From Candidatus Eremiobacterota bacterium (GTDB taxonomy: Bacteria > Vulcanimicrobiota > CADAWZ01 > Ess09-12), in assembly GCA_031082125.1 (NCBI GenBank), contig JAVHLM010000045.1:1-47177 (forward strand): 47,177 bases of DNA. The letters are read 5' to 3'. This document shows, one piece after another, positions 26,425-47,177 of the stretch. The notes under the pieces are model-generated. The model searched no databases. It had not been told where the DNA came from and saw only the letters and a list, made by a program, of their open reading frames with translations. How positions within the stretch are numbered: the first letter of the stretch is position 1; each line of letters starts with the position of its first letter. Both the position numbers and the translations under genes were made by a program.

Positions 26425-26439
26425 GAGCAGTCCTCCTTT

Positions 26440-26481
26440 TTATAAGTGTCACTCTCTAATTTATAAGTGTCACTCTCTAAT
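26440..26481. repeat. Two exact tandem 21-bp repeats upstream of 26424 gene
   Basis: TTATAAGTGTCACTCTCTAA plus T occurs twice in perfect tandem (26440-26460 and 26461-26481). On the minus strand each copy contains GTGACACTTATAA, and the inner copy ends just before the ribosome binding site of the 26014-26424 gene. A 21-bp period is two helical turns. It could be a double operator or a recent slippage duplication of the promoter -10 region. Confidence 0.8.
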
Positions 26482-26514
26482 TTACATGCCGCCCCCCGAT
26501 GTTCCTGCTGTTAT

Positions 26515-45874: not shown

Positions 45875-46288
45875 TCAGTCGTAGTCGGGCTCTCCAAGCT
45901 CCGTGACGAGGTACTCTTCGCCGCCGCATTCCTTCAACATTGCGGCGATCTCGGCATTTGCCGCCAGGTGCAGGGGGACCGCTCCCTCCAGATTGGCCAC
46001 ATAAGGTATCGCTCCGTTGGCAATGAGGCGCTTCACTATCTCCGTGTGGCCGTTCTGAGAGGCATAATGAAGAGGGGTGGCACGCCACCTGTCGAGGATA
46101 TTCACCGAAGCACCCCTGGAGATGAGGAAAGTCACCAGGTCATTATGCCCCCTCTGCGAAGCCCAGTGGAGAGGCGTTGTCGCGTTGCTGTCCTTGAGGT
46201 CCACGTTGACCTCATGGCTGCTGATGAGCTCCTTCACCCTCTGGGGCTGATTCTCTGCCATTGCTTCAATGATATCCAGCAGACACAC
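45875..46288 (-). CDS. Ankyrin repeat protein
   Basis: 137 residues from a GTG at 46288, which has GGAGG 5 nt upstream; a longer frame to an ATG at 46393 adds 35 residues without a ribosome binding site. Four ankyrin units: NQPQRVKELISSHEVNVDLKD, TTPLHWASQRGHNDLVTFLI, ATPLHYASQNGHTEIVKRLI and AVPLHLAANAEIAAML. The T-P-L-H-x-A-x-x-x-G-H signature is perfect in the second and third. The fold binds other proteins. It is a single-gene unit, convergent with the 44525-45835 gene. Confidence 0.85.
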   Translation of the reverse strand: MCLLDIIEAMAENQPQRVKELISSHEVNVDLKDSNATTPLHWASQRGHNDLVTFLISRGASVNILDRWRATPLHYASQNGHTEIVKRLIANGAIPYVANLEGAVPLHLAANAEIAAMLKECGGEEYLVTELGEPDYD

Positions 46289-46445
46289 TTGTTCCTCCGG
46301 GAAACTCCAATTTCTGCCATCAGTCTGGCACCCACAAGGTTTTCCAAAGCATGAATGTTCTCCTGCCTCCGGAAAACTGGGTGCCCGCACCATGGAGCAT
46401 CGATAAGATAACAGGGCAGCGCAAAATGTTTACCTGCTGTTCATC

Positions 46446-46502
46446 CCTGTAAGAACCCTGTAAGGCACCTGTGAGGGTCCTGTAAGGGGGGGGTGGTATC
46501 AT
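46446..46502 (+). promoter_or_regulatory. Four phased CCTGTAAG repeats before an extended -10 (PhoB/OmpR-like box)
   Basis: CCTGTAAG occurs at 46446-46453, 46457-46464 and 46479-46486, and CCTGTGAG at 46468-46475: four copies with an exact 11-bp period. An extended -10, TGGTATCAT, follows at 46494-46502, its TATCAT starting 10 bp after the last repeat. There is no -35. Direct repeats with an 11-bp period placed 10 bp from the -10 are the classic design of promoters activated by winged-helix response regulators (pho box). The spacer is a run of eight G residues and TGG. Confidence 0.65.
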
Positions 46503-46542
46503 GAGCCCATAAAGCACGAGATACCAGAAGGAGGAAAATAAA

Positions 46543-46983
46543 ATGGCAGACATCAGCATCCAGCCCAGGACAGCTTACGCGGGACCTTACGGCGGTTACG
46601 GCGAATACGGCGGGGCCGCAGGAGTGAGCGCCGACGGCACAAAGGGCGCAATCGGCGGGGCGGGCTACCACGTGGGACCCAACGGCGGCGTGAGCGCCGG
46701 AGCAGGGTTCGCAGCGGCAGGCCCCAACGGCGCCATCGGCGGATTCGCCGGCGCTACCGACAATCCCTATGTGTCAGGATCGGCGAAAGGCGGCTTTGCC
46801 TTCAATGCCGCCACCGGTGAGTTCGACTCGGCCAACAGCGCCCAGTGGACCAACAAGACCACCGGCGAGAGCCACTCAAGGTCCGTTGAGAAGAATCTCC
46901 AGCTGGGCCAGGGCGGCACCATATCGGTGACCAGGGACGGCGTGAACCAGACCTACACGATTCCCCCGAGACCTACGGAGTAA
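46543..46983 (+). CDS. Glycine-rich low-complexity protein
   Basis: 146 residues from an ATG with an excellent ribosome binding site (AAGGAGGA). The first 85 residues are Gly/Ala/Tyr-rich repeats (GPYGGYGEYGGAAGVS, GAIGGAGYHVGPNGGVSAGAG). The rest is more ordinary (FAFNAATGEFDSANSAQWTNK, GGTISVTRDGVNQTYTI), with a beta-rich pattern. No signal peptide is seen. The protein resembles short structural, shell or spore-coat-like proteins in composition but matches no family I know. Its promoter holds four phased repeats, and a hairpin follows the gene. Confidence 0.8.
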   Translation: MADISIQPRTAYAGPYGGYGEYGGAAGVSADGTKGAIGGAGYHVGPNGGVSAGAGFAAAGPNGAIGGFAGATDNPYVSGSAKGGFAFNAATGEFDSANSAQWTNKTTGESHSRSVEKNLQLGQGGTISVTRDGVNQTYTIPPRPTE

Positions 46984-46998
46984 TCCTTAAATCTGCAG

Positions 46999-47039
46999 AG
47001 GAAGAGGCGCCCGACACGCTCCCCCGGACGCCTCTTCCT
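46999..47039 (+). terminator. Terminator-like hairpin
   Basis: AGGAAGAGGCG (46999-47009) pairs perfectly with CGCCTCTTCCT (47029-47039) across a 19-nt loop. It begins 16 nt after the stop codon of the glycine-rich gene. A U-tract is lacking. Confidence 0.6.
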
Positions 47040-47177
47040 GCTGTACTGCCCCCGGAAAAGGGAATCCCCTTCACGCTTTTGTGAGAGCGTTCGTTTCCTG
47101 CCTTTCCGAACCCGCTTTCCGGGGAATCTACAGGTCAAGAGCCATGAAATCTTTCCCCCGCAAAAAACATTCCGCCC

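Follow-up and report, generated by a model that had tools for sequence, protein, structure and literature searches.

The pho box overlaps the -35 region of the promoter (PMC3348028). The same is true of operators bound by the SARP activators, which recognise direct repeats spaced at 11 or 22 bp. The box of AfsR consists of two 11-bp repeats, extends from -40 to -19 and overlaps the -35, and the AfsR dimer that it binds engages region 4 of the sigma factor (PMC10936776). In the case of PimR the heptamer is CGGCAAG with 4-bp spacers (PMC5930380), and the number of repeats in known SARP operators is two or three, the genes activated being antibiotic clusters of actinomycetes (PMC10972967). For comparison, the boxes of phoA, pstS and phoB were recovered from E. 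coli genomes, and the annotation of phoA was checked. All three are head-to-tail heptamers at 11 bp with a C-T-G-T core, separated by 10 bp from -10 elements whose assignment we take to be established knowledge.

In this study we focused on a repeat array at positions 46446-46502 of the window, by which we mean the whole stretch of 47,177 nucleotides analysed (contig C45). Its heptamer period, its C-T-G-T core and its distance from the -10 are those of the E. coli boxes, although the heptamer is CTGTRAG here and CTGTCAT there. With the operators of AfsR, PimR, DnrI and ActII-ORF4 it has in common the 11-bp heptamer repeats overlapping the place of the -35, and the PimR heptamer differs from CTGTAAG at two positions (PMC5930380). 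What sets this array and its relatives apart from SARP operators is the number of repeats, which is four, the nature of the targets, and candidate regulators that carry receiver and HD-GYP domains.

The repeat array and its target gene

Four half-sites can be read on the forward strand. The first two, both CTGTAAG, lie at 46447-46453 and 46458-46464; they are followed by CTGTGAG at 46469-46475 and CTGTAAG at 46480-46486. The period is exactly 11 bp over all three intervals. The original prediction had implied four copies of CTGTAAG, which is correct for copies 1, 2 and 4, the third differing by one A to G change. Tandem Repeats Finder also lists 46446-46488 with a period of 11, and CTGTAAG-N4-CTGTAAG with up to two mismatches occurs three times in the window, each time at the array, against a mean of 0.12 and a largest count of 2 in 100 shuffles. 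A forward-strand spacer of 10 bp (46487-46496) leads from the last heptamer to the TATCAT of an extended -10, TGG TATCAT (46494-46502, +). Half-sites 3 and 4 together span the place of the missing -35, where the best match to TTGACA is 2/6 at spacers of 15-19 bp. The four phased repeats, the lack of a -35 and the 10-bp gap had all been predicted, and these readings agree with them.

Downstream of the promoter, a Shine-Dalgarno sequence, GGAGG (46530-46534, +), precedes the ATG at 46543 of a gene for a 146-amino-acid Gly-rich protein (46543-46983, +), one of a family of four genes found in this genome only. The gene is followed by a hairpin (46994-47045, +) with no strong run of T's. A block of 577 bp holding array and gene (46429-47005) recurs without any change on contig C30 between different flanks, and the C30 copy looks like a recent duplicate. 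The hairpin differs between the two copies, with changes on both sides that leave its stem intact; this preservation supports the earlier view that the Gly-rich gene forms a single-gene unit. The divergent ankyrin-repeat gene (45875-46393, -) lies outside the duplicate. Elsewhere in the window, at 26439-26484, there is a perfect 21-bp tandem repeat of TTTATAAGTGTCACTCTCTAA in 2.2 copies.

Related arrays elsewhere in the genome

The genome searched comprises 7.43 Mb in 69 contigs and is 97.6% complete. A scan for further instances had been named beforehand as the result that would count against the prediction if empty, and it returned seven more arrays. CTGTAAG-N4-CTGTAAG with at most one mismatch gave 19 matches against 1 for a backward-pattern control, and a three-copy pattern with at most three mismatches gave 12 against 0 for the reversed pattern. 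The three-copy matches collapse to arrays on contigs C45 (the window), C30, C18, C36, C11, C25 and C27. An eighth, on C28, came from a pattern that joined two half-sites to a -10 and required a gap of 10; it reads CGGTGAG, CTTAAAG, CTGTGAG, CTGTGAG, a gap of 10, and TATAAT. It was outside the training set of the weight matrix and scores 38.8 against a maximum of 9.7 in shuffles of the same sequence, and across the 262 kb scanned all eight arrays appear in the correct register with scores of 38.8 to 59.3. At least eight promoters (seven independent and one duplicate) therefore combine four CTGTRAG-type half-sites with a TAnnnT -10 at 10 bp; the scanning was pattern-based and weaker members may be missed, so this number is a lower bound. 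The spacer is equally long and the half-sites number four, as had been claimed for the window, in 8/8 arrays. Three of the seven independent arrays, all upstream of paralogous genes, may have a common origin.

The six independent arrays found by their repeats alone, from which the C30 duplicate was left out, allow the promoter to be defined more closely. TAnnnT occurs exactly 10 bp past the last heptamer in 6/6, at gaps of 0-9 in none, and at any other gap within 0-24 at most once, the background rate being 20 in 2409 positions (0.008 per position). Their 24 half-sites all share G3, T4 and A6; C1, T2 and G7 are conserved in 21-22, and position 5 holds either A or, in eight, G; unlike the heptamers, the 4-bp spacers between them are not conserved. 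No -35 above 2/6 matches was seen at any of the six. Two other repeats were rejected: C2:23430 falls within a coding frame resembling leucyl-tRNA synthetase, and C23:109135, upstream of a FecR-domain gene, is a weak match of two half-sites with a 9-bp gap that was excluded from the count.

Genes downstream of the arrays and their conservation

An array precedes all four Gly-rich family genes of the genome (C45, C30, C18 and C36). Signal peptides are not evident in the family, which has no match in PHROGs or the PDB; the window protein has none in Pfam, and its single-sequence AlphaFold model (mean pLDDT 46) was not usable. The C18 member carries DUF1521 with a GDPH motif; NopE1, a type III-secreted protein, and a homologue from Vibrio have this domain (PMC6506597), which is mentioned for other proteins too. 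Arrays also head four transcription units unrelated to this family. On C11 the target is an uncharacterised protein of 186 amino acids, and on C27 a beta-propeller-type protein of 198. The C25 target, for which no homologue was confirmed, is listed at 340 amino acids, but the ATG of that listing overlaps the -10, so translation must in fact begin further downstream. The array on C28 lies 211 bp upstream of the first gene of an operon, which encodes a GAF histidine kinase and a SARP-like regulator with receiver, HD-GYP, TPR and BTAD regions.

Two further observations were made in the course of this survey. A protein of 914 amino acids, consisting mostly of R/E-rich repeats (RERVQDRREEKPESL), is encoded at L020:1367-4111, in a gene divergent from that of the C11 array. 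Matches to FHIPEP, the FlhA/SctV export gate, occur at about ten loci (L095-L102, G000:C9:115001 and C2:222441); one of these is an ordinary flagellar flhA with an flhB-like gene next to it, and several others match the cytoplasmic part only, with no export neighbours within the short stretch examined.

Outside this genome, no orthologues of the Gly-rich proteins were confirmed in GTDB contigs and none were found in 57 genomes of the phylum, the closest genomes compared belonging to the same order as this bacterium. The array plus -10 pattern, run on 149 genomes of the phylum, gave single matches in five others, and control matches were likewise single; the three-copy pattern matched once in each of three relatives, which is roughly what chance would give. 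Array matches in relatives are scattered and at about chance level. One of these single, chance-level matches is nevertheless well placed: in G005 (L054:1490-1560) three CTGTNA-type repeats at 11 bp lie upstream of a TolC-like gene that adjoins a histidine kinase.

A model for the operator

Winged-helix operators are expected to consist of direct repeats that recur once per helical turn, overlap the place of the -35 and stand at a fixed distance from the -10, and the arrays have all of these features. It is suggested here that the array is an activator operator replacing the -35 of a sigma70-type promoter, a reading to which we would assign a probability of roughly 0.8 and which concerns the operator and not the identity of its regulator. 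Four tandem winged-helix domains of the OmpR/PhoB superfamily would occupy the CTGTRAG half-sites along the same face of the DNA, probably as two head-to-tail dimers. The promoter-proximal pair would cover the place of the missing -35 and keep RNA polymerase and region 4 of sigma in position over the isolated -10, which stands 10 bp downstream of the array. The same architecture could drive at least eight transcription units, namely four Gly-rich paralogues, three unrelated proteins and one kinase-regulator operon. The sequence itself establishes the arrays, their fixed distance from the -10, the absence of a -35 and the set of promoters; we infer the protein, the number of dimers, the positive sense of the regulation and the signal.

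A site lying over the -35 region could also block RNA polymerase, and the repeats might instead be the operator of a repressor, or a tandem duplication of no consequence. This is improbable when it is considered that no array promoter has a -35, that the 10-bp gap is fixed across unrelated promoters, and that the heptamers are conserved while their spacers vary freely. Still less credible, and in our view very unlikely, is a true Pho box through which PhoB switches on the array genes at low phosphate. The layout is identical to that of the E. coli boxes: at least two heptamers at 11 bp end 10 bp before the -10 and replace the -35. The arrays differ in always having four copies. Against this reading, none of the eight promoters lies upstream of a phosphate gene; in this 7.4-Mb, 97.6% complete genome PhoU is absent, the best ABC ATPase scores 177 against a PstB cut-off of 343, and 0/9 OmpR-type response regulators reach the PhoB equivalog cut-off of TIGR02154 (296.2), the best, on C32, scoring 262.7. 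The link to phosphate in the original prediction is not upheld, and the arrays are unlikely to mark a phosphate regulon. Its assignment to a PhoB/OmpR-family activator site fares better, in that the fixed gap and the lack of a -35 agree with a winged-helix operator; the SARP/BTAD alternative had been overlooked.

Candidate regulators

Candidates for the winged-helix protein that may bind the arrays are the nine OmpR-type response regulators and six proteins with a BTAD region. In the arrays the last repeat lies 10 bp from the -10 in the CTGTRAG register, where about 8 bp would be expected of a SARP operator in its published register; when counted by 11-mers the distance equals that of AfsR, where 6 bp separate the last 11-mer from the -10 (PMC10936776). 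Spacing alone cannot separate a response regulator from a SARP, because both groups of activators use the same layout.

The six proteins, each of about 850 amino acids with receiver, HD-GYP, TPR and BTAD regions, are encoded at L020:4818-7418, L121:2294-4840, L122:2611-5169, L123:4497-7076, L124:3952-6528 and L125:2989-5535, and several of the genes come after those for GAF histidine kinases. No paper was found in the literature combining response regulator, HD-GYP, BTAD and SARP. Such a gene is near two of the seven independent arrays: it belongs to the operon on C28, and on C11 the array gene converges on another, itself adjoining a histidine kinase. None was seen at the remaining arrays, and the BTAD genes on C20, C19, C26 and C5 have no CTGTRAG-type array upstream. 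The chance of two of seven arrays falling in BTAD loci is about 0.001, a rough count to be taken as a guide, since its window sizes were set once the adjacency had been noticed. From this proximity we consider the chances evenly balanced that the regulator is one of the six. It is possible, at somewhat less than even odds, that it is instead a classical two-domain regulator of the OmpR/PhoB type and that the SARP-like operon on C28 is merely one of its targets. The heptamer and gap do match the E. coli boxes (CTGTCAT, N10), nine such regulators are available, and a C25 regulator, with CTTAC-N6-CTTAC repeats in its own promoter, lies together with its kinase about 1.1 kb from an array; that regulator, or those on C32 and C2 with recognition helices that appear PhoB-like by eye, would be the candidates. 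However, one adjacency in seven is near chance (0.058), no OmpR-type regulator gene was found to carry a CTGTRAG-type array, and the repeats in the promoter of the C25 regulator itself are in the opposite orientation. Since the C28 array heads, and the C11 array adjoins, a kinase and BTAD pair, a SARP-like regulator is the slightly better candidate.

The repeats at the C25 regulator belong to a second type of promoter, with CTTAC/TTACA repeats mostly in 11-bp steps, in the opposite orientation, and a -10 about 9 bp away in three cases. Four were noted, at L025:6055-6125 (the C25 regulator), L025:8550-8620, L094:1433-1530 (C33, -) and L062 upstream of 4915 (a regulator at C28:21 kb), and in two cases the gene that follows is for an OmpR-type response regulator. 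The one on C33 (L094:1377-1480, -) faces an intergenic gap with a G+C-rich hairpin followed by T's, which could be a small RNA or merely a shared terminator. Read on the reverse strand, the arrays themselves give CTTAC-N6-CTTAC, similar to CreB-type operators (TTCAC-N6-TTCAC); the core differs and this is a resemblance only.

Implications

The arrays appear to define a small and seemingly undescribed regulon of at least eight promoters in this uncultured bacterium, judged from their sequences, although the kind of promoter is already known. A single odd repeat has in this way become a regulon that can be tested. The layout of the pho box is not diagnostic of phosphate control, its spacing being common to OmpR-type response regulators and SARP/BTAD activators. 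We tentatively suggest that a phosphorelay ending in the receiver-HD-GYP-TPR-BTAD proteins might activate the Gly-rich family through four-repeat, PhoB-like boxes and feed back on its own kinase-regulator operon. If true, SARP-type control would here extend beyond antibiotic synthesis, to a regulon in a phylum that has received little study. The arrays may offer a first handle on the roles of the orphan Gly-rich family and of the six receiver-HD-GYP-BTAD regulators.
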